From positions 1-33,179 of the forward strand of contig PLDY01000096.1 in NCBI GenBank assembly GCA_003136895.1: 33,179 nt of DNA, in the 5' to 3' direction. Under the pieces are notes generated by a model. The model made no database searches. It was not told the origin of the DNA and was given only the letters and a program-made list of their open reading frames with translations. Position 1 is the stretch's first letter; each line of letters begins with the position of its first letter. The stretch is from Candidatus Erabacter solicola. GTDB lineage: Bacteria > Vulcanimicrobiota > Vulcanimicrobiia > Vulcanimicrobiales > Vulcanimicrobiaceae. Below are positions 25,624 to 32,424 of this stretch, in pieces. A program made the position numbers and the translations under genes.

Positions 25624-25651
25624 TTGACAATTGCCCGGCGCATGGTATTCT
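25624..25651 (+). promoter_or_regulatory. Sigma70-like promoter ahead of structured RNA and tRNA array
   Basis: A consensus -35 TTGACA (25624-25629) is followed after 16 bases by TATTCT (25646-25651). It is the best-matching promoter I can see in the window. The predicted start is near 25658, just before the structured RNA. With leaky termination it could also serve the tRNA array, which begins seven bases after the hairpin. Confidence 0.6.
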
Positions 25652-25657
25652 TCTAGC

Positions 25658-25860
25658 AATGGAGACTTTGTTCGTGACCTATACATCCTCGGCCCAAAGG
25701 CTATCAACGAGCGGCAGATTATCGGATTGCTTCGGCATATCCGAACCAATGAATCATGCCGCCAAGTCGATTGGTCGCGAGGTCGCGATCGCGTAAGGGT
25801 ACGTCCGCACAACCTTTTCTCTTCAAGAGAGGCCGGGCGGAAACGCCCGGCCTCTCTTGC
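25658..25860 (+). ncRNA. Highly structured non-coding RNA candidate (6S-like rod)
   Basis: Between the promoter and the terminator hairpin lies a roughly 200-base transcript that folds as one long interrupted rod. The paired segments are: CCTCG 25687-25691 with CGAGG 25778-25782; CCAA 25694 with TTGG 25771; CGA-GCGGCA 25708-25716 with TGCCGC 25757-25762 and TCG 25767-25769; GATT 25717 with AATC 25752; TCGGAT 25722 with ATCCGA 25739; and TGC/GCA closed by a C(UUCG)G tetraloop at 25731-25734. Size, rod shape, an internal asymmetric bubble (25698-25707) and its own promoter and terminator are reminiscent of 6S RNA, the RNA polymerase regulator. It could equally be a leader of the tRNA operon. 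The open frame across it has no family features. Confidence 0.5.
25825..25858 (+). terminator. Intrinsic terminator-like hairpin before tRNA array
   Basis: A 15-bp perfect stem (25825-25839 with 25844-25858) closes a GAAA tetraloop. The following bases are gctttat, so the T-tract is weak. It ends the structured RNA and sits seven bases before the first tRNA, which suggests partial read-through into the array. Confidence 0.7.
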
Positions 25861-25865
25861 TTTAT

Positions 25866-25938
25866 GGCGTTCTAACCCAAACGGCGCGGGGGCAGCTTGT
25901 GACGCTGCTAGTAATGGGTTCGACTCCCATCGGACGCC
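25866..25938 (+). tRNA. tRNA-His(GTG), aberrant
   Basis: The anticodon arm GCAGC-TTGTGAC-GCTGC and T-arm ATGGG-TTCGACT-CCCAT are clean. Read as a His tRNA with G-1 paired to C73, position 8 becomes A instead of U and pair 7-66 is mismatched; a seven-pair acceptor instead leaves one extra base before position 66. No complete CCA is encoded. It is separated from the rest of the array by a 177-base spacer (25939-26117) in which I see no gene. Confidence 0.7.
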
Positions 25939-26117
25939 CAGTCTTCTTCCAAAACGAATTCCAGATCATTGAAAACTGCACGGTATTCTCTTAGCACGGG
26001 CTCGACGCGGCGATTTTTCTCCGCACCGCAGACACCTGTAGTTTCGTGCGCCCTTTTCAAGGATGACAGTCGATGTGTGGATTCAGTCGAGCGAGCCACG
26101 ATGTAGTCGACGAATAA

Positions 26118-26192
26118 AGATCGATAGCGTAACGGGCAACGCACGGCGCTCCAAACGCCGAGTAGAGGGTTCGAGTCCTTCTCGGTCTGCCA
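26118..26192 (+). tRNA. tRNA-Trp(CCA)
   Basis: Full cloverleaf: acceptor AGATCGA/TCGGTCT, D-stem GCGT/ACGC, anticodon arm CGGCG-CTCCAAA-CGCCG, T-arm GAGGG-TTCGAGT-CCTTC, G73 and encoded CCA. U8 and U33 are present; one of the most canonical members of the array. Confidence 0.93.
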
Positions 26193-26203
26193 GTTCGGTA
26201 TAA

Positions 26204-26236
26204 CGATGGGAGGTGCTTGGCCGGCACCTTCCATCG
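26204..26236. other. Strong hairpin in spacer between tRNA-Trp and tRNA-Ser
   Basis: CGATGG/CCATCG and AGGTGC/GCACCT stack on a G-T wobble to give a 13-bp stem with a seven-base loop. No T-run follows. It could be a processing or termination signal after the His/Trp pair. Confidence 0.45.
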
Positions 26237-26248
26237 CCCCGAACCCTT

Positions 26249-26342
26249 GGAGCGATGGCCGATGCTGGTAAGGCGCTGCTCTGCTACAGCAGTGAAGCTC
26301 AGATAATGGGCTGCGTGAGTTCGATTCTCACTCGCTCCTCCA
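26249..26342 (+). tRNA. tRNA-Ser(GCT), class II
   Basis: Acceptor GGAGCGA/TCGCTCC, anticodon arm CTGCT-CTGCTAC-AGCAG, a long variable arm of Ser type, T-arm GTGAG-TTCGATT-CTCAC, U73 where Ser tRNAs usually have G73, encoded CCA. It abuts the next tRNA with no spacer base. Confidence 0.9.
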
Positions 26343-26414
26343 CGGGAGATAGCCGAGACAGATTAGCGATGCGTTGAAGGCGCGTAGACGCCGGTGCAAT
26401 ACCGGCTCTCCCGG
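26343..26414 (+). tRNA. tRNA-Phe(GAA)-like, degenerate T-loop
   Basis: Acceptor CGGGAGA/TCTCCCG is perfect and the anticodon arm ATGCG-TTGAAGG-CGCGT gives GAA. The T-loop is TGCAATA instead of TTCRANY, so the U54-U55-C56 signature is broken. The D-stem is poor and no CCA is encoded. Possibly a tRNA losing function, or one with altered elbow contacts. Confidence 0.7.
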
Positions 26415-26435
26415 CAACTACGAATGCGGACAGAC

Positions 26436-26463
26436 GCGAGTTCGATTCTCGCCGAGGGTTCCA
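26436..26463 (+). pseudogene. 3' remnant of a tRNA gene
   Basis: T-arm GCGAG-TTCGATT-CTCGC, the 3' acceptor strand CGAGGGT, U73 and CCA are intact, but no matching 5' acceptor strand exists in the 21 bases since the previous tRNA. The piece could be a deletion remnant or a residual integration site, since integrases commonly target exactly this part of tRNA genes. Confidence 0.7.
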
Positions 26464-26465
26464 AT

Positions 26466-26542
26466 GGGTCGGAATGTTCCAAGGCTGGCGAGCCTCACTT
26501 GCAATGAGGCTGTGTAGAGTTCGATTCTCTATCGATCCACCA
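26466..26542 (+). tRNA. tRNA-Ala(TGC)-like
   Basis: Acceptor GGGTCGG/TCGATCC, anticodon arm CCTCA-CTTGCAA-TGAGG, T-arm TAGAG-TTCGATT-CTCTA, A73 and CCA. The D-arm does not form a normal four-pair stem and A replaces U8. The G3-U70 pair that specifies alanine is present (G3 opposite T70), which supports Ala identity. Confidence 0.8.
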
Positions 26543-26561
26543 ACTATCCAGAACATCCCAA

Positions 26562-26645
26562 TGCTCGGTGGCGGAATGGGAGACGCACCTGGTTGTTACC
26601 CAGGCGTCGAAAGGCGTGTTGGTTCAAGTCCAACCCGAGCAGCCA
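26562..26645 (+). tRNA. Class II (Leu-like) tRNA with Asn anticodon GTT
   Basis: The body is textbook Leu class II: GGTGGCGGAAT in the 5' part, AGACGC after the D-loop, a variable arm CGTCGAAAGGCG and the T-arm GTTGG-TTCAAGT-CCAAC. The anticodon arm CCTGG-TTGTTAC-CCAGG, however, reads GTT (Asn). G73 and the U1-A72 pair resemble bacterial tRNA-Asn rather than Leu (A73). CCA is encoded. Charging by LeuRS, SerRS or AsnRS cannot be decided from sequence. Confidence 0.85.
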
Positions 26646-26646
26646 A

Positions 26647-26721
26647 GCCCGACTAGCACAATCCGGTAGATGCAACTCGCTCAGAACGAGTAGGTTCGCG
26701 GTTCGAATCCGCGGTCGGGTA
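26647..26721 (+). tRNA. Class I tRNA with Leu anticodon CAG
   Basis: Acceptor GCCCGAC/GTCGGGT, D-stem starting GCA, anticodon arm ACTCG-CTCAGAA-CGAGT (CAG), only a five-base variable loop, T-arm CGCGG-TTCGAAT-CCGCG, A73, no CCA. Bacterial Leu tRNAs normally have a long variable arm, so this combination is atypical. Confidence 0.85.
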
Positions 26722-26728
26722 CGAACGA

Positions 26729-26818
26729 GCCGATGTAGCAGAATGGTACTTGCGCGGCGCTCAGAACGCCGGTCGACCGTGACGGTCATTGGAGGTTCGA
26801 ATCCTCTCATCGGCACCA
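26729..26818 (+). tRNA. tRNA-Leu(CAG), class II
   Basis: Acceptor GCCGATG/CATCGGC, D-stem GCAG/TTGC, anticodon arm CGGCG-CTCAGAA-CGCCG, long variable arm with stem GACCG/CGGTC, T-arm GGAGG-TTCGAAT-CCTCT, A73 and CCA. Fits a normal bacterial Leu tRNA and shares its anticodon with the preceding class I gene. Confidence 0.92.
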
Positions 26819-26819
26819 A

Positions 26820-26898
26820 CTCGTCGTTGCTCAATTGGTAGAAGCCGTCGCTCTTAAAAAGCGATGTTGTCGCGGTTCGAATCCGCGCGACGAGACCA
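26820..26898 (+). tRNA. Class I tRNA with Leu anticodon TAA
   Basis: Acceptor CTCGTCG/CGACGAG, anticodon arm TCGCT-CTTAAAA-AGCGA (TAA), short variable loop, T-arm CGCGG-TTCGAAT-CCGCG identical to the class I CAG tRNA, A73 and CCA. The D-arm appears one base longer than usual. Second short-variable-loop tRNA with a Leu anticodon. Confidence 0.85.
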
Positions 26899-26899
26899 T

Positions 26900-26984
26900 G
26901 CGATCGTGGTGAAATTGGCAAACGCACCACCCCGAGACGGTGACGCCGCAAGGCTTACGGGTTCAAGTCCCGTCGATCGCACCA
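26900..26984 (+). tRNA. tRNA-Leu(GAG), class II, C33
   Basis: Acceptor GCGATCG/CGATCGC, Leu-type GTGGTGAAATTGGCAAACGCA, variable arm ACGCCGCAAGGCTT, T-arm ACGGG-TTCAAGT-CCCGT, A73 and CCA. The anticodon stem has four good pairs plus a 27-43 mismatch, and the loop CCGAGAC puts C at position 33. Confidence 0.85.
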
Positions 26985-26985
26985 C

Positions 26986-27068
26986 GCCGGTTATCCCGAG
27001 GAGGGAACGTTGGCTGTAAACCAACTGCGCTGCGCGCAACGGGAGTTCGACTCTCTCAACCGGCACCA
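26986..27068 (+). tRNA. tRNA-Tyr(GTA), class II
   Basis: Acceptor GCCGGTT/AACCGGC, D-stem CCC/GGG, anticodon arm GTTGG-CTGTAAA-CCAAC, long variable arm as expected for bacterial Tyr, T-arm GGGAG-TTCGACT-CTCTC, A73 and CCA. Position 8 is A instead of U. Confidence 0.9.
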
Positions 27069-27069
27069 C

Positions 27070-27170
27070 GCCTGCCTAGTTTAAACGGAAAAACGCTCGT
27101 CTTATAAACGAGTAAAAGCGCCCGGCCGATTACCGGGAGAATCTGGGTTCGATTCCCGGGGCAGGTACCA
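27070..27170 (+). tRNA. Ile(TAT)-anticodon tRNA with a 30-base variable region
   Basis: Acceptor GCCTGCC/GGCAGGT, D-stem GTTT/AAAC, anticodon arm CTCGT-CTTATAA-ACGAG (TAT, reading AUA), T-arm CTGGG-TTCGATT-CCCGG, A73 and CCA. The variable region 27113-27142 is 30 bases and contains its own stem CCCGG/CCGGG. Ile tRNAs are class I with a short variable loop, so both the size and the rare UAU anticodon are unusual. Seryl- or leucyl-type charging is conceivable. Confidence 0.85.
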
Positions 27171-27171
27171 C

Positions 27172-27245
27172 GGCTTCTTAGTTCAAGGGCAGAACGTCTG
27201 TTTCATACGCAGATTACGACGGCTCGACTCCGTCAGAAGCCACCA
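27172..27245 (+). tRNA. tRNA-Met/Ile2(CAT)
   Basis: Acceptor GGCTTCT/AGAAGCC, D-stem GTTC/GAAC, anticodon arm TCTGT-TTCATAC-GCAGA, T-arm GACGG-CTCGACT-CCGTC with C54 in place of T54, A73 and CCA. The paired first base argues against the initiator; elongator Met or lysidine-modified Ile2 cannot be separated here. Confidence 0.87.
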
Positions 27246-27246
27246 T

Positions 27247-27321
27247 AGGGATGTTGCGCAGTGGTAACGCGTTTGCTTCGGGAGCAAAAGTTCGCAGGTT
27301 CGATTCCTGTCATCCCTGCCA
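27247..27321 (+). tRNA. tRNA-Pro(CGG)
   Basis: Acceptor AGGGATG/CATCCCT, D-stem GCG/CGC, anticodon arm TTTGC-TTCGGGA-GCAAA, T-arm GCAGG-TTCGATT-CCTGT, G73 (Pro usually A73) and CCA. Confidence 0.9.
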
Positions 27322-27322
27322 T

Positions 27323-27394
27323 GCCGGCGTAGCTCGCGATCGAGCGCGCGCACTTGTAATGCGCAAGGGATCGGTTCGACTCCGATCGCCGGCT
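27323..27394 (+). tRNA. tRNA-Thr(TGT)
   Basis: Acceptor GCCGGCG/CGCCGGC, D-stem GCTC/GAGC with a short loop lacking the GG pair, anticodon arm GCGCA-CTTGTAA-TGCGC, T-arm ATCGG-TTCGACT-CCGAT, U73, no CCA. It is the last tRNA before the lipoprotein gene. Confidence 0.88.
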
Positions 27395-27473
27395 TCAATT
27401 CATCTGGGCAGGCGGCGTACAGCGGCCATCTCGAATTCTCGTAGGCCCGAAGCGTTCCGTGAGGGATCCTTAG

Positions 27474-28679
27474 ATGCTCCGCCGGCTGTCTGCCTCTGCG
27501 TTCATCGTCTGCCTCTGCGCGGCGCTATCGGATTGCGGAGGCGGCGGCAGCTCGCCGCCGATCCCGGGCAACTCCGGCGGATCTCCGGGAACCGGCGGCC
27601 CTGCGATCGACGCGCTCGTCGCGCAGAATTACCCCGGCGGCTGGGGCGTCGAGGTTGCGATCTTCCGCAACGGGACGCCAATCTTCGAACGCGGGTACGG
27701 GTTGCGAGATCGCGGCTTACCGGACACCTTCGCGCCGGTCGATATCTTCGGCGTTCAGCAGCCGGACCAATTGTTCGGGCTCGCGCGAGGAGCGTTCGCG
27801 CCGGATGCAAACACGATCTTCGACCTGGCATCGGTCAGCAAAGAGTTCACCGCCGGAGCCATTCTCTTGCTCCAACAGGACGGGAAACTCTCCGTTAATG
27901 ACCCTCTCTCGAAGTACTTCCCAACGTTCCCGAACGGCGGCGCCATCACGTTGCTCAGTCTTCTGCATCACAACAGCGGCCTGGTCGACTACAATAACTT
28001 CGGCGATTCGCCCGATTTCACCGGCGCCTACAATGCGTTCATGGCGAGCGGGCAGACGAACTATCAGCCCATCGTCGATCAGCTCGCGACCTTCCCGTTG
28101 GATTTTGCTCCGGGAACGAACTTCGAGTACAGCAACACGAACTATCTCCTTCTCGGAATCGTCGTCGCGAAGGTCAGCGGCCAGACGCTACGGGCGTTCT
28201 TGCAGCAGCGCGTTTTCGGGCCGCTCGGGATGACGCAGACGCAGCAAGGCGAACCCCAGGCGCCCGTCACCGACCTCGCGCTCGGATATCGAAATCCAAG
28301 CGGCACCATAGTGCGCGCCTGGCAATGGAATCTCGATTGGCTCGCTGGGCCGGGCGGGATGACCTCGACCGTTGGAGATCTCGAAAAATGGGATTTGTCG
28401 GTGCGAACTCCGGGAATCTTCACACAGGCCTCGCTGACCCAGATGTTTGCGCCGGGTCCCTTTCCACAATCGGTCGGTGCGTACGCGGACGGCTGGTTCG
28501 TCGCGACGCTCAACGGCCATCAGTATATTTGGCACGATGGCGCGGTCGGCGGCTATCAGACGATGAATGCGACTTTCCCGAGCGACGGCATCGACATCGT
28601 CATCCTGACGAACGACGGAACCGGGCTGGATCCCTATTTCATCGTCCCGCAACTCTTCGCCATCGCTCAATCACTGTAG
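27474..28679 (+). CDS. Beta-lactamase-fold serine hydrolase, probable lipoprotein, inside the tRNA array
   Basis: A 401-residue protein of the class C beta-lactamase/penicillin-binding-protein-like family. The N-terminal signal ends at C21 after LSD, followed by a Gly/Ser/Pro-rich tether, so it is probably a lipoprotein, although Asp at -1 is atypical for a lipobox. Catalytic motifs are S120-x-x-K123 (SVSK), Y219-S-N221 (YSN) and H354-D-G356 in the place of KTG. Such enzymes are esterases, D-aminopeptidases or peptidoglycan hydrolases; true beta-lactamase activity is not implied. GAGGGA lies before the ATG. It splits the tRNA array (tRNA-Thr 79 bases before, tRNA-Pro 11 bases after), and its composition matches the chromosome rather than the tRNA spacers. 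Confidence 0.9.
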   Translation: MLRRLSASAFIVCLCAALSDCGGGGSSPPIPGNSGGSPGTGGPAIDALVAQNYPGGWGVEVAIFRNGTPIFERGYGLRDRGLPDTFAPVDIFGVQQPDQLFGLARGAFAPDANTIFDLASVSKEFTAGAILLLQQDGKLSVNDPLSKYFPTFPNGGAITLLSLLHHNSGLVDYNNFGDSPDFTGAYNAFMASGQTNYQPIVDQLATFPLDFAPGTNFEYSNTNYLLLGIVVAKVSGQTLRAFLQQRVFGPLGMTQTQQGEPQAPVTDLALGYRNPSGTIVRAWQWNLDWLAGPGGMTSTVGDLEKWDLSVRTPGIFTQASLTQMFAPGPFPQSVGAYADGWFVATLNGHQYIWHDGAVGGYQTMNATFPSDGIDIVILTNDGTGLDPYFIVPQLFAIAQSL

Positions 28680-28690
28680 CTTCCCAGCAC

Positions 28691-28764
28691 CTAGGTGTAG
28701 CGAAGCGTATCGCGCTCGGCCTGGAACCGAGAGAGCGCAGGTTCAAATCCTGCCGCCTAGACCA
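28691..28764 (+). tRNA. tRNA-Pro(TGG), C33
   Basis: Acceptor CTAGGTG/CGCCTAG, D-stem GCGA/TCGC with a six-base loop lacking GG, anticodon arm CTCGG-CCTGGAA-CCGAG (TGG, C at 33), T-arm GCAGG-TTCAAAT-CCTGC, A73 and CCA. Confidence 0.85.
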
Positions 28765-28765
28765 C

Positions 28766-28841
28766 GCCCACCAAGCAGACGTGGAATTGCACCGGGTTTT
28801 TACCCCGGATATGCTCGGTTCAAATCCGAGGGTGGGCACCA
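28766..28841 (+). tRNA. tRNA-Lys(TTT)
   Basis: Acceptor GCCCACC/GGTGGGC, D-stem GCAG/TTGC, anticodon arm CCGGG-TTTTTAC-CCCGG, T-arm CTCGG-TTCAAAT-CCGAG, A73 and CCA. A replaces U8. Confidence 0.9.
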
Positions 28842-28845
28842 GCTT

Positions 28846-28924
28846 CCGCGCGCCGCGCAATTGGAATGCGCACCGATCTTCTAAATCGGACAAGATGCGG
28901 GTTCGAATCCCGCCGCGCGGTCCA
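28846..28924 (+). tRNA. tRNA-Arg(TCT)
   Basis: Acceptor CCGCGCG/CGCGCGG, D-stem GCGC/GCGC, anticodon arm CCGAT-CTTCTAA-ATCGG, seven-base variable loop, T-arm GCGGG-TTCGAAT-CCCGC, U73 and CCA. Position 8 is C instead of U. Confidence 0.9.
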
Positions 28925-28925
28925 A

Positions 28926-29000
28926 TCCCGGTTCGTCTAGGCGCTAAGACGGCAGCTTTTGGATCTGCTCAGGGTGGTTGAAGTCCATCACCGGGAACCA
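28926..29000 (+). tRNA. tRNA-Gln(TTG)
   Basis: Acceptor TCCCGGT/ACCGGGA, D-stem GTCT/AGAC, anticodon arm GCAGC-TTTTGGA-TCTGC with a 31-39 mismatch, T-arm GGTGG-TTGAAGT-CCATC with G56 instead of C56, A73 and CCA. The C56 change would disrupt the G19-C56 elbow pair. Confidence 0.85.
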
Positions 29001-29001
29001 C

Positions 29002-29075
29002 GCCGGCTTAGCACAATGGCAATGCGTCGCACCCGTAATGCGATGACGGCAGTTCGATTCTGCCAGCCGGCTCCA
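29002..29075 (+). tRNA. tRNA-Thr(CGT), C33
   Basis: Acceptor GCCGGCT/AGCCGGC, D-stem starting GCA, anticodon arm TCGCA-CCCGTAA-TGCGA (CGT, C at 33), T-arm GGCAG-TTCGATT-CTGCC, U73 and CCA. Confidence 0.88.
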
Positions 29076-29076
29076 C

Positions 29077-29151
29077 GCCCCCGCAGCTCGATGGACGAGC
29101 GGCGCGCTTCGAACGCGTAGGTTGCAGGTTCGAATCCTGTCGGGGGCTCCA
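29077..29151 (+). tRNA. tRNA-Arg(TCG)
   Basis: Acceptor GCCCCCG/CGGGGGC, D-stem GCTC/GAGC, anticodon arm GCGCG-CTTCGAA-CGCGT, T-arm GCAGG-TTCGAAT-CCTGT, U73 and CCA. C replaces U8. Confidence 0.9.
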
Positions 29152-29153
29152 CT

Positions 29154-29229
29154 GATGACGTCGGCAAATGGGAAGCCCGCGCACCGCAAATGCGCTACCG
29201 AGTGTGTTCGATTCACACCGTCATCTCCA
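29154..29229 (+). tRNA. tRNA-Cys(GCA), C33
   Basis: Acceptor GATGACG/CGTCATC, D-stem GGC/GCC, anticodon arm GCGCA-CCGCAAA-TGCGC (GCA, C at 33), T-arm GTGTG-TTCGATT-CACAC, U73 (normal for Cys) and CCA. Confidence 0.88.
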
Positions 29230-29233
29230 ACGT

Positions 29234-29322
29234 GGAAGGTACCGCCGGGTGGCTGGCAACTGGTCCTGAAAACCAGGGCGACGTGATGAGCGTCGATGGT
29301 TCGACTCCGTTACCTTCCTCCA
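29234..29322 (+). tRNA. tRNA-Ser(TGA), class II, C33
   Basis: Acceptor GGAAGGT/ACCTTCC, anticodon arm CTGGT-CCTGAAA-ACCAG (TGA, C at 33), long variable arm with stem GACG/CGTC, T-arm GATGG-TTCGACT-CCGTT, U73 and CCA. A occupies position 8. Confidence 0.88.
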
Positions 29323-29323
29323 C

Positions 29324-29398
29324 GCACGCGTAGCTCAACGGTAGAGCATCCGGTTGTCGACCGGAAGGTCGTGGGATCGTCACCCATCGCGTGCGCCA
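29324..29398 (+). tRNA. tRNA-Asp(GTC), altered T-loop
   Basis: Acceptor GCACGCG/CGCGTGC, canonical D-arm GCTC/GAGC, anticodon arm TCCGG-TTGTCGA-CCGGA, T-stem GTGGG/CCCAT with loop ATCGTCA, so T54 and A58 are changed. G73 (as in Asp) and CCA. Confidence 0.9.
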
Positions 29399-29399
29399 T

Positions 29400-29475
29400 G
29401 CCGACGTAGCTCAACCGGAAGAGCTACAGGTTCTTACCCTGTGCGTTGTGGGTTCGAGTCCCACCGTCGGCCCCA
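29400..29475 (+). tRNA. tRNA-Lys(CTT)
   Basis: Acceptor GCCGACG/CGTCGGC, D-arm GCTC/GAGC, anticodon arm ACAGG-TTCTTAC-CCTGT, T-arm GTGGG-TTCGAGT-CCCAC, C73 (Lys usually A73) and CCA. Confidence 0.92.
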
Positions 29476-29476
29476 T

Positions 29477-29548
29477 GCGGATTTCGTCCAACGACTAGGA
29501 TACGGCGTTTTCACCGCCGTGATGCGGGGTCAGCACCCGCAGTCCGCA
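29477..29548 (+). tRNA. tRNA-Glu(TTC), altered T-loop
   Basis: Acceptor GCGGATT/AGTCCGC, Glu-like TCGTCCAAC D-arm, anticodon arm CGGCG-TTTTCAC-CGCCG, T-stem GCGGG/CCCGC with loop GTCAGCA (T54 and A58 lost), A73, no CCA. Confidence 0.85.
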
Positions 29549-29562
29549 TCATTCAATGTCAC

Positions 29563-29637
29563 GTTGCCGTAGCTCAGCGGTAGAGCGCCGCCCCGATAAG
29601 GCGGAGGTCGACGGCTCGATACCGTCCGGCAGCACCA
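29563..29637 (+). tRNA. tRNA-Ile(GAT), C33
   Basis: Acceptor GTTGCCG/CGGCAGC, canonical D-arm GCTC/GAGC, anticodon arm CCGCC-CCGATAA-GGCGG (GAT, C at 33), T-arm GACGG-CTCGATA-CCGTC with C54, A73 and CCA. Confidence 0.9.
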
Positions 29638-29646
29638 GGCACTCAC

Positions 29647-29720
29647 GCGGGCGTTGCATAGTGGCAATGCCGCTGCCTTCCAAGCAGAAGTCCCGAGTTC
29701 AATTCTCGGCGCCCGCACCA
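29647..29720 (+). tRNA. tRNA-Gly(TCC)
   Basis: Acceptor GCGGGCG/CGCCCGC, D-stem GCAT/ATGC, anticodon arm GCTGC-CTTCCAA-GCAGA with an outer G-A mismatch, T-arm CCGAG-TTCAATT-CTCGG, A73 and CCA. Last tRNA of the array, 36 bases before the HNH gene. Confidence 0.9.
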
Positions 29721-29756: not shown

Positions 29757-30284
29757 ATGAGCGACGTTCTCGTTCTCAACTCAACCTACGAACCATTGAA
29801 CGTCACGAGCATCGCGCGTGCCGTTCGGTTGATCTTTGCCGGTAAGGCCGAGGTCTTGCACGATCGCGGCCGCATTGCCTCGCCGACGATCGAGTTCCCG
29901 CTGCCGTCGATCGTCCGGATGCTGTACTTCATCCGGCATCGCAAGAAGCGTGTCGCTCTCACCAAGAAGAACGTGCTCTTGCGCGATGACTACGCCTGCG
30001 CGTACTGCGGCAAGCGCGGCGACCGATCGACGATGACGGTCGACCACGTCGTGCCGCGCCGCCAAGGCGGGCGCTCCGAGTGGACCAATCTGGTCGCAGC
30101 TTGCGTGGAATGCAACGGCCGCAAACGCGACCGGACCCCGCTCCAAGCGCAGATGCCGCTACGCCGAAAGCCGCACGAACCCCGCTACATACCGTTCTTC
30201 GTCGTTCGCCGCAATACGGAGCGCGACGAGTGGATCAAGTACCTGACGCTCTACTCGGTATCGATCGAGCAGCGTCTCACTTGA
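29757..30284 (+). CDS. HNH endonuclease
   Basis: A 175-residue protein of a widespread HNH family that begins VLVLNSTYEPLNVTS. The nuclease core is C81-x-x-C84 (CAYC), the HNH histidine in VDHVVP (D96-H97), N111, and C116-x-x-C119 (CVEC), so the zinc-stabilised beta-beta-alpha metal fold is complete. An N-terminal region of about 65 residues probably binds nucleic acid. AAAGGAG lies about 11 bases before the ATG at 29757, and a GTG sits directly before it in frame. It starts 36 bases after the last tRNA and could be transcribed with the array. Its target (DNA or possibly RNA) is not evident. Confidence 0.92.
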   Translation: MSDVLVLNSTYEPLNVTSIARAVRLIFAGKAEVLHDRGRIASPTIEFPLPSIVRMLYFIRHRKKRVALTKKNVLLRDDYACAYCGKRGDRSTMTVDHVVPRRQGGRSEWTNLVAACVECNGRKRDRTPLQAQMPLRRKPHEPRYIPFFVVRRNTERDEWIKYLTLYSVSIEQRLT

Positions 30285-31043: not shown

Positions 31044-31068
31044 CTCACGCCGCATCGTGCGTCGTGAG
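31044..31068 (-). other. Right-end hairpin overlapping the tnpB stop
   Basis: CTCACG/CGTGAG and CGCA/TGCG stack around a C-T mismatch with a three-base loop. Position and structure fit the right-end hairpin of an IS200/IS605 element and the 3' part of its guide RNA scaffold. Confidence 0.5.
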
Positions 31069-32265
31069 CGGGGTCCTCGCCCACGATAGCTCACTTATGC
31101 GCTGCTTCTCAGCGCGTCGCCCGATCTCTAGCGCCGCCGCTACGTCGGCATGGCAAGTCCAGCCACACGCAACACAGCAGAAGCGCCTTCTTCGGCGACT
31201 CTTCGGGTCGACGTGCAGGCAGCGCCCGCAGGTCTGACTCGAATATCTCGCGTCCACGCTGACCACTTCGCGCGCAGCATATTCTGCTTTCTCGCGTATC
31301 AGCGCCGCAAATGTTCCAAACCCCGCATCGAGCATGACGCGATTGAGGCCGCTCTTGGCCGCAACATTACGGCCCGGTTTCTCGATGGTGCCCTTGGCAC
31401 TCCGGGTCATCGCCCGAACATCCAGGGCCTCAAGACCGATCACGTCGGCGGACTTCACGATCTTATGGGCCGCTTTGTGCAAGCCGTCGAGCCTGGCGTT
31501 GGCTTCCCGTTCCTTCGCCCGCGCAAGACGCCGGGCCGCGGCGATCCGGCCCGGATCGCGCCGGTTCAGGCAGCGTCCCTTTGCATCTTTGACGCTAACC
31601 GCGTCCAGCGCTCGCTGATGGCTCGACACGATCCGCCGGAGGCGTTCCCCGTGTTGGCCGTTGCCGATCAGTACGCCCTCGCTGGTCGCAGCGAGCACAT
31701 GCACTCCACGATCGATCCCGACGACCTTGCCCGTCTTCGGCAATGCTTTGGGCTCACGCTCGCACTCGAAGCTGGCCCACCAGCGGCCGTTTTTCTCGGC
31801 CACGAAGGCTCGGCCGAAGTCCGGAATCGCACGGCCTTTGCGCAGCCGGACCGTACCAACCCCGGGAATACGCACCCATTTCTGTTCCTGATCGAGTTTC
31901 AGCGCGCGGTCGCCGTGCGGGAATTCCAGCTGCTTCCAGCGCGCTTTCGGCTTGAAGCGGGGATAACCGGGAGTCTCCCCGTTCTTGACGCGTCGAAAGA
32001 ATGCGGCAAACCCAAGGTCGAGCCGGTGCAACACCGCGTCCACGCACTCGCGGTAGACCGCAGCGAACCGGCTGTCCTCTGCGCGGAGCGCCGTGATCTC
32101 GGCGTATTGCATCTTCGTTGTAACGCGAATGCGACGAGCGGTCCAGGCGTACCGGCGCTCATCTAGGAGAGCGTTGTACGTCTGCCGCGTTACGTCGAGC
32201 ATGAACTCCAGACGCTCGGCTTGGGACCTCTTGGGATAGAGACGAACGCGGTGCATCCAGCGCAT
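31045..32265 (-). CDS. tnpB: RNA-guided nuclease TnpB
   Basis: A 406-residue TnpB, the compact RuvC nuclease related to Cas12. The N-terminal OrfB/helix-turn-helix part begins RWMHRVRLYPKRSQAERLEF. RuvC-I aspartate is in GKVVGIDRGVHVLAATS, RuvC-II glutamate in DVIGLEALDVRAM, and RuvC-III aspartate in TCHADVAAALEIG. The zinc ribbon is CGRC...CVACG. All catalytic residues are present and the frame is intact, so it is probably active. The ATG at 32265 is preferred because the longer frame would translate the left-end palindrome; ATG 32256 is a close alternative. Confidence 0.92.
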   Translation of the reverse strand: MRWMHRVRLYPKRSQAERLEFMLDVTRQTYNALLDERRYAWTARRIRVTTKMQYAEITALRAEDSRFAAVYRECVDAVLHRLDLGFAAFFRRVKNGETPGYPRFKPKARWKQLEFPHGDRALKLDQEQKWVRIPGVGTVRLRKGRAIPDFGRAFVAEKNGRWWASFECEREPKALPKTGKVVGIDRGVHVLAATSEGVLIGNGQHGERLRRIVSSHQRALDAVSVKDAKGRCLNRRDPGRIAAARRLARAKEREANARLDGLHKAAHKIVKSADVIGLEALDVRAMTRSAKGTIEKPGRNVAAKSGLNRVMLDAGFGTFAALIREKAEYAAREVVSVDARYSSQTCGRCLHVDPKSRRRRRFCCVACGWTCHADVAAALEIGRRAEKQRISELSWARTPLTTHDAA

Positions 32266-32282
32266 ACGTTCATGGTAGTGCC

Positions 32283-32310
32283 CGAGTGTGCCACCATGGT
32301 GGCACACTCG
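32283..32310. repeat. Perfect 28-bp palindrome at the left end of the tnpB element
   Basis: A fully self-complementary 28-base sequence with half-site CGAGTGTGCCACCA and no loop lies 18 bases upstream of the tnpB start. IS200/IS605 left ends carry subterminal hairpins recognised by TnpA, so this is probably the transposition end; an operator for tnpB is the alternative. Confidence 0.6.
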
Positions 32311-32424
32311 CAGGCGAGGACGACACACACTCCCCGGGCGGCATCGCTTACCTCCTGTTCGCTACTTCGGAACGTGCTTCGAAACCGGCGGCGCGGTCGG
32401 TGCTACATCCACTCAATCGTCTTA

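Follow-up and report, generated by a model that had tools for sequence, protein, structure and literature searches.

The 33,179-bp contig PLDY01000096.1 of Candidatus Erabacter solicola, referred to here in its full length as the window, carries at 25866-29720 an array of 28 transfer RNA (tRNA) genes and one tRNA gene remnant, all on the + strand within 3.85 kb, that covers 19 amino acids and lacks Val. The window is an entire contig of a 2.85-Mb, 91.6%-complete genome of Candidatus Eremiobacterota (WPS-2), a little-known phylum; the bacterium itself comes from soil. We argue that the array is very likely an auxiliary second tRNA set, and that, together with a promoter and leader (25624-25857) that start about 240 bp upstream of the first tRNA and mark the true beginning of the feature, it forms an inducible operon governed by an attenuator with its own short open reading frame (ORF). 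We put the probability of this reading at roughly 0.6. The array is apparently an emergency translation kit for use when the normal tRNAs fail.

The array is very likely a second tRNA set

ARAGORN found 27 tRNA genes in the window at 25867-29720 on the + strand, and tRNA-Ile(TAT) was added both by Rfam and by ARAGORN with long inserts allowed, which brings the total to 28. Reading of the 3' ends showed that CCA is encoded in 23 of the 28, the exceptions being His, Phe, the first Leu(CAG), Thr(TGT) and Glu. Most of the intergenic spacers are 1-10 nt, and an origin of the array by chance is excluded. A preliminary description of this DNA, made by reading the letters, had given the same 28 tRNAs and remnant, the same isotypes without Val and the same number of CCA ends, all of which the searches bear out. 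Tested with the Rfam model RF00005, 22 members in the window scored 38.9-62.5 bits; in the scan of the whole genome, the weakest array members reached 32-36 bits, compared with 45-76 bits for the housekeeping set.

That scan revealed 38 further tRNAs with normal features elsewhere in the genome. As the genome holds these other, ordinary tRNAs, the array constitutes a second set. Identity between its members and the housekeeping tRNA of the same amino acid is 51-75%, except for Gly(TCC), which at 92% looks like a recent copy of the housekeeping gene. The preliminary description had suggested just such an auxiliary set, and its own counter-proposal, that the genome has no other tRNAs, falls with the 38 genes found, even with housekeeping Asp, Cys and Trp genes missing from the assembly. 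With 28 closely packed genes, redundancy with and divergence from the chromosomal set, and an associated HNH gene, the array has the make-up of the tRNA array units described elsewhere, which hold about 20 or more densely spaced genes and frequently, though not always, an HNH gene.

The 91.6%-complete assembly yielded no housekeeping genes for Asp, Cys, Trp, Leu(TAA) and Pro(TGG). In a relative with a complete genome of 45 tRNAs and no array (G008), genes for Asp, Cys, Trp and Pro(TGG) do occur, so the housekeeping tRNAs missing here have probably fallen into gaps of the assembly. This bears on the possibility that the array supplements codon supply or growth speed, for the host or for a mobile element. 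The array does contribute Arg(TCG) and Ile(TAT), together with the Leu(TAA) and Pro(TGG) anticodons that are unfound in the housekeeping set of the assembly. However, the anticodons of 21 of the 28 array tRNAs duplicate housekeeping ones, and the housekeeping Pro(TGG) gene of G008 implies that some of the apparent gaps are gaps in the assembly. We therefore regard a codon-supply role, one of those raised in the preliminary description, as very unlikely to be the main one.

As a separate observation, housekeeping tRNA-Thr(TGT) has an extended, class II-like variable arm (82-84 nt) in L039 (1031-1116), L067, L068/L308, L070, L073 and L076, and the normal length of 73 nt in L063, L069 and L071.

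A promoter, a leader ORF and a hairpin precede the array

The window promoter (25624-25651, + strand) consists of a -35 box TTGACA (25624-25629), a 16-nt spacer and a -10 box TATTCT (25646-25651) preceded by TG. It is the best promoter match of the region, and an equivalent position is occupied in related arrays. It is followed on the same strand by a leader ORF, METLFVTYTSSAQRLSTSGRLSDCFGISEPMNHAAKSIGREVAIA (25659-25796), whose 45 codons use 19 of the 20 amino acids, and by a terminator-like hairpin, AGAGAGGCCGGGCG-GAAA-CGCCCGGCCTCTCT with the tail TGCTTTATGG (25826-25857; dG about -32), the proposed attenuator. The window thus displays the layout of a leader-ORF attenuator, in which a promoter, a short ORF and a terminator stand before the regulated genes.

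The same layout recurs in other Eremiobacterota, which are cited below by our handles. A promoter, a leader ORF of 33-46 codons and a hairpin precede the first tRNA in every array examined, and the hairpin is stable and terminator-like in 11 of 11 arrays. The leader stop codon lies 28-38 nt before the hairpin in all 12 leaders, including an orphan leader of G128 (L292); in the window the distance is 29 nt. In nine of ten cases the start codon lies 6-10 nt behind the -10 box (7 nt in the window), so close that the leader ORF would be nearly leaderless. The leader of G035 has a longer 5' end and a Shine-Dalgarno-like AAGGAG. This geometry of promoter, ORF and hairpin is kept across unrelated leaders. 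In the arrays flanked by RtcB, as well as in G003 and G128, the upstream gene is divergently oriented, so that the hairpin cannot be the terminator of a co-directional upstream gene.

Two further observations concern the leader region. The orphan leader ORF and terminator of G128 lie beside RtcB with no tRNAs behind them (L292, about 1400-1600). In L217, L218, L233, L237 and L253, a repeated motif resembling TGTCAAC-RTGARAAACATTG, possibly an operator, occurs upstream of the -35 box, no more than about 60 nt from the promoter.

Amino-acid content of the leaders and the proposed mechanism

All 20 amino acids occur in the leaders of G123, L233, L237 and L253, where they fit in 43-44 codons. The leaders of the window, L217 and L241 contain 19, that of L218 contains 18, those of G128 and G035 contain 17 and that of G003 contains 16. 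Against a null of same-length windows of real proteins, the four complete leaders each have P values of 0.0017-0.0026, followed by L241 (0.027), L217 (0.036) and the window (0.049). Between any two of the complete leaders, 13-26 of 43-44 residues are different, and the rare W, C, H, K and N change places while the full set is retained; under random replacement, the chance of keeping it is 0.012-0.064 per leader pair. Among the closer pairs, the ratio of nonsynonymous to synonymous differences (pN/pS) ranges from 0.39 to 0.59. With 15-16 kinds of amino acid, the orphan leader of G128 has fewer than most leaders that front an array.

Pairing between the terminator's 5' arm and the stretch behind the stop codon is possible in seven leaders of genus g9; the cells are paired in 95% of cases, compared with 29-58% in slid controls, and the alignment of the antiterminator contains one covarying pair. 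Equilibrium folding was rejected as proof of antitermination because its states were not separable from shuffles.

From these observations, we infer translation of the leader, termination and antitermination at the hairpin, charging of the tRNAs and a protective effect of their altered features. In the proposed mechanism, one promoter, a translated leader, an attenuator, the 28 tRNAs and the HNH gene would together make up an inducible auxiliary tRNA operon. During normal growth, a ribosome would complete the 45-codon leader and rest at the stop codon, 29 nt ahead of the terminator stem, where it would cover the stretch behind the stop; the terminator would then form and the array would be off. 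Because the leader uses nearly every amino acid, a lack of almost any charged tRNA, whether through cleavage by an anticodon nuclease or toxin, through starvation or through a translation antibiotic, would stall the ribosome upstream in the leader. This would leave the post-stop stretch free to pair with the terminator's 5' arm, and transcription would read through. Completed translation would thus favour termination and an upstream stall would favour read-through, since it is the ribosome at the stop codon that covers the antiterminator stretch. The divergent backup tRNAs, with their altered anticodon loops, would subsequently restore translation.

It is about an even chance that the leader goes further and acts as a universal sensor of charged tRNA, selected to contain all or nearly all of the 20 amino acids and gating the second set, with its altered decoding loops, by attenuation, with RtcB and Ro60 as RNA-repair partners in relatives.

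Several findings weigh against an attenuated auxiliary operon. The leader was identified after the fact, and the U tracts are weak behind several hairpins, including that of the window, where the tract is modest. The predicted antiterminator of the window was no better than shuffles (z -0.53), and pairing of the arms as such was not above shuffles. The window leader has no Trp although the array contains a tRNA-Trp. The leaders of G003, G128 and G035, with 16, 17 and 17 kinds of amino acid, are not significantly diverse (P 0.54, 0.42 and 0.10), the four complete leaders are homologous to one another, and pN/pS is near 1 for distant pairs. Neither RtcB nor TROVE is present in the assembly of the window genome. 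Finally, with the housekeeping Asp, Cys and Trp genes unfound in the assembly, the array may not be purely auxiliary in this genome.

The array is maintained and its oddities recur

From its 5' end, the array runs through tRNA-His(GTG) (25866-25939, with G-1 facing C73), Trp(CCA) (26118-26192), Ser(GCT) (26249-26342) and Phe(GAA) (26343-26415, with G73 and an altered T loop, TGCAATA) to the remnant (about 26416-26464), which retains a T arm, the 3' strand of the acceptor and CCA. Ala(TGC) (26466-26542), in which G3:U70 is retained, is followed by Asn(GTT) (26562-26645), a class II tRNA with a Leu-like body and G73. Then come four tRNA-Leu genes, namely Leu(CAG) (26647-26722, class I, without the long variable arm), a second Leu(CAG) (26729-26818, class II), Leu(TAA) (26820-26898, class I) and Leu(GAG) (26900-26984, C33). 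Tyr(GTA) (26986-27068), Ile(TAT) (27070-27170, from Rfam and long-insert ARAGORN, with a variable region of about 30 nt), Met(CAT) (27172-27245), Pro(CGG) (27247-27321) and Thr(TGT) (27323-27394) complete the first part of the array.

Here a gene for a 401-aa serine hydrolase of the beta-lactamase family PF00144 (27474-28679, + strand) is inserted; its relatives in other Eremiobacterota, 65-70% identical, lie outside arrays. The second part consists of Pro(TGG) (28691-28764, C33), Lys(TTT) (28766-28841), Arg(TCT) (28846-28924), Gln(TTG) (28926-29000), Thr(CGT) (29002-29075, C33), Arg(TCG) (29077-29151), Cys(GCA) (29154-29229, C33), Ser(TGA) (29234-29322, C33), Asp(GTC) (29324-29398, T loop altered to ATCGTCA), Lys(CTT) (29400-29475), Glu(TTC) (29476-29550, with an additional acceptor pair and an altered T loop), Ile(GAT) (29563-29637, C33) and Gly(TCC) (29647-29720, with A73 where the housekeeping copy has U73).

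Stems and features were counted in 240 tRNAs from 11 arrays. Of 4080 pairs in the acceptor, anticodon and T stems, 98.0% are formed. Between orthologues, 4998 paired positions have changed on both sides and are still paired, 592 have changed on one side and are still paired, and 421 are broken; these are counts and not a test, as the sequence pairs are non-independent. When the 5' strand of one tRNA is combined with the 3' strand of its orthologue, only 66% of the pairs form. Identity elements at position 73 are held as well, with A73 in Leu (23 of 23) and Ala (11 of 11), G73 in Asn (11 of 11) and U73 in Cys (10 of 10) and Thr (13 of 13); G3:U70 of Ala and G-1 of His are seen in G003 as in the window. 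That the stems have diverged by thousands of two-sided, paired changes indicates that the arrays are maintained rather than decaying. The remnant gene, the five members without CCA, the lower covariance-model scores and the patchy distribution would be expected of functionless remnants of a lost element, but with paired stem divergence this strong and identity elements kept across genera, we find such decay hardly credible.

The aberrant features that the preliminary description had noticed in many members were confirmed, and because the same oddities recur in related arrays, they are not noise. C33 replaces U33 in 43 of the 240 array tRNAs, six of them among the 28 of the window, whereas all 135 distinct housekeeping tRNAs are free of it (Fisher P about 2e-9, shared ancestry ignored). 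Twelve of 23 array tRNA-Leu genes, 72-77 nt in length, have no long variable arm, whereas housekeeping tRNA-Leu measures 79-86 nt. In both the window and G003, tRNA-Gln has G56 in the T loop with a probable C19, a swapped 19-56 tertiary pair.

Anticodon-loop changes relative to host tRNAs, as seen here, are expected of a set that is insensitive to anticodon nucleases. It is possible, if short of probable, that the array serves mainly to withstand tRNA-cleaving toxins or the nucleases of phage defence, through the C33 and swapped bodies of its tRNAs. This idea, survival of anticodon nucleases being among the suggestions of the preliminary description, draws on the enrichment of C33, on the RtcB and TROVE neighbours of arrays in relatives and on phage tRNAs, which carry anticodon-loop changes predicted to evade cleavage by tRNA nucleases (PMC10264068). 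On the other hand, no particular nuclease has been identified, C33 is scattered over many amino acids rather than confined to one target and could simply be tolerated in seldom-used tRNAs, and the window genome assembly is without RtcB or TROVE. Nuclease resistance would be compatible with an inducible operon, and shifts the emphasis from the switch to the tRNA bodies.

Two observations on single array tRNAs may be added. Anticodons with an unusual A34, namely Gly(ACC) and Val(AAC), occur in L084 (12142-12216), L218 (6723-6798) and L253 (6739-6814), and Ser(CGA) of the G035 array (L084, 11762-11847) scores slightly above the cut-off of the tRNA-Sec model.

Related arrays and neighbouring genes

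Arrays with a shared gene order are found in about ten other Eremiobacterota. In G003, which belongs to the same family but a different genus, 15 of the window's tRNAs occur in identical order, and a shorter piece of the remnant (CGAGGGTTCC) sits between Ser(GCT) and Ala. A common plan of 13-28 tRNAs, Trp-His-Ser-Phe-Arg-Ala-Asn-Leu(n)-Tyr-Met-Pro-...-Gln-Lys-Cys-Thr-Ser-Asp-Glu-Ile-Val-Gly with an HNH gene mostly at the end, is present in G123, G127 (L217), G129 (L218), G120 (L233), G122 (L237), G121 (L253), L241 and G128, and in part in G125. The array of G035, from another family, has a different order; a transfer-messenger RNA call there was disregarded, as it overlaps several array tRNAs.

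In the window, the HNH endonuclease gene (29757-30284, + strand; PF01844/PF14279, 175 aa) starts 36 nt past the last tRNA, and an HNH gene lies immediately 3' of the final tRNA in seven other Eremiobacterota arrays as well. Its nearest relatives are Eremiobacterota genes (57-68% identity). HNH was rejected as a specific marker of arrays, since most HNH relatives in Eremiobacterota have no tRNAs nearby and only a subset is array-linked; the array HNH is accordingly a paralogue. One relative lies away from tRNAs, beside pdxST-like genes (L223, 7001-7522), and a second, distinct HNH gene is lodged inside an array at L115 (5836-6342). A DUF6847 (PF20935) gene is found within or directly behind arrays at L114 (3813-4289), L253 (4504-4974) and L084 (10322-10840).

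A gene for the RNA ligase RtcB adjoins the array in L217, L233, L237, L114 and L241, and a TROVE/Ro60 gene lies beside it in L217, L218, L233 and L253 and inside it in L112. Both being missing from the assembly, RtcB and Ro60/TROVE were rejected as components of the window's own system.

The rest of the contig carries core metabolic genes, including an E1/E2 dehydrogenase, an FAD-linked oxidase and ETF-QO, and no integrase, phage or conjugation genes were recognised across the whole 33 kb. The proposal in the preliminary description that the array supports a mobile element was not borne out by this setting, yet the distribution of arrays is patchy, with many relatives lacking one, and their flanks vary between genera. 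The flanks in the window showed no synteny with the loci at which relatives carry an array or HNH. A TnpB/IS605 OrfB-type gene lies on the - strand (31045-32328), downstream of HNH.

Comparison with known systems

It has long been asked what purpose the extra tRNA sets of bacteria, phages and plasmids serve. Should the leader function as we read it, a translational stall at any amino acid would turn the set on, through an attenuator that senses every amino acid simultaneously, and the arrays would be tied to rescue from tRNA loss and not to codon usage. Moreover, the arrays provide natural tRNAs in which C33 or a swapped body class (a short tRNA-Leu, a class II Asn or Ile) is combined with intact identity elements, and these would be useful to probe the rules of aminoacylation and nuclease recognition.

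In Mycobacterium, tRNA array units associated with HNH have been described from chromosomes, plasmids and phages (groups G1-G5; PMC5966550, PMC12803027). Like the window array, they have 20 or more dense, divergent and redundant tRNAs for 19-20 amino acids, with HNH in or beside the array. A short tRNA-Leu, Ile(TAT) and a class II Asn are shared with the M. intracellulare plasmid array that we read, and HNH-linked Nostoc plasmid arrays too have a short tRNA-Leu, Ile(TAT) or class II Asn. The Mycobacterium units differ in gene order, and the Eremiobacterota relatives have a chromosome-like setting and RtcB/Ro60. The leader ORF and attenuator hairpin upstream in Eremiobacterota were not seen in the single M. 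intracellulare array examined. Phage tRNA clusters, such as those of Tunturiibacter phage Tunturi_5 and Myxococcus phage Mx1, likewise bring together tRNAs, HNH and RNA-repair or Ro-like genes, but their order is scattered, their spacing looser and their HNH at most 45% identical, and no shared leader was found.

The trn operon on the delta plasmid of Anabaena PCC 7120 has 26 tRNAs, is silent and is induced by translation-targeting antibiotics; it is repressed by TrcR at TGTAGTAT, and rtcB and HNH genes belong to the same regulon (PMC10272220). Here, too, a second tRNA set is gathered in one operon. Whereas the trn operon uses TrcR, the window array has the proposed leader-ORF attenuator instead; the TrcR operator is absent from the window and present upstream of the Nostoc plasmid array. 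The analogy with Anabaena, taken together with the leader, makes a backup role under translation stress likely.

These parallels also raise the possibility that the array is an ordinary one that came from a phage or plasmid and was retained because it helps translation or counters defence systems, repressor-controlled or uncontrolled, with an incidental leader ORF. Phages and plasmids commonly carry HNH-linked arrays, the Mycobacterium units and the repressor-controlled trn operon are precedents, and the patchy distribution and differing flanks would fit. We nevertheless consider such an inheritance unlikely, given the geometry conserved across unrelated leaders, the missing TrcR site, the closest HNH relatives being from Eremiobacterota rather than phages, and the fact that neither the array Ser gene nor the leader hairpin was found in IMG/VR. 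A phage origin by DNA similarity was rejected, as mostly one or two tRNAs were matched at 73-85% and no shared array was found; a plasmid origin was rejected likewise, again with no shared array.

The literature searched, whose coverage was incomplete, contained neither a tRNA array under a leader-peptide attenuator nor a description of a tRNA array in Eremiobacterota. A close parallel to the proposed attenuated operon is given by the whiB7/wblC attenuators of Actinobacteria, in which a translated upstream ORF (uORF) is followed by a Rho-independent terminator and a competing antiterminator, and which sense general translation failure, amino-acid starvation included (PMC11550727). The logic is the same as that proposed for the array leader, but the whiB7/wblC uORFs govern a transcription factor and not tRNAs, and phylum and sequence differ. 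HNH-linked tRNA arrays are already known; the predicted pan-amino-acid attenuator is, as far as we have found, new.

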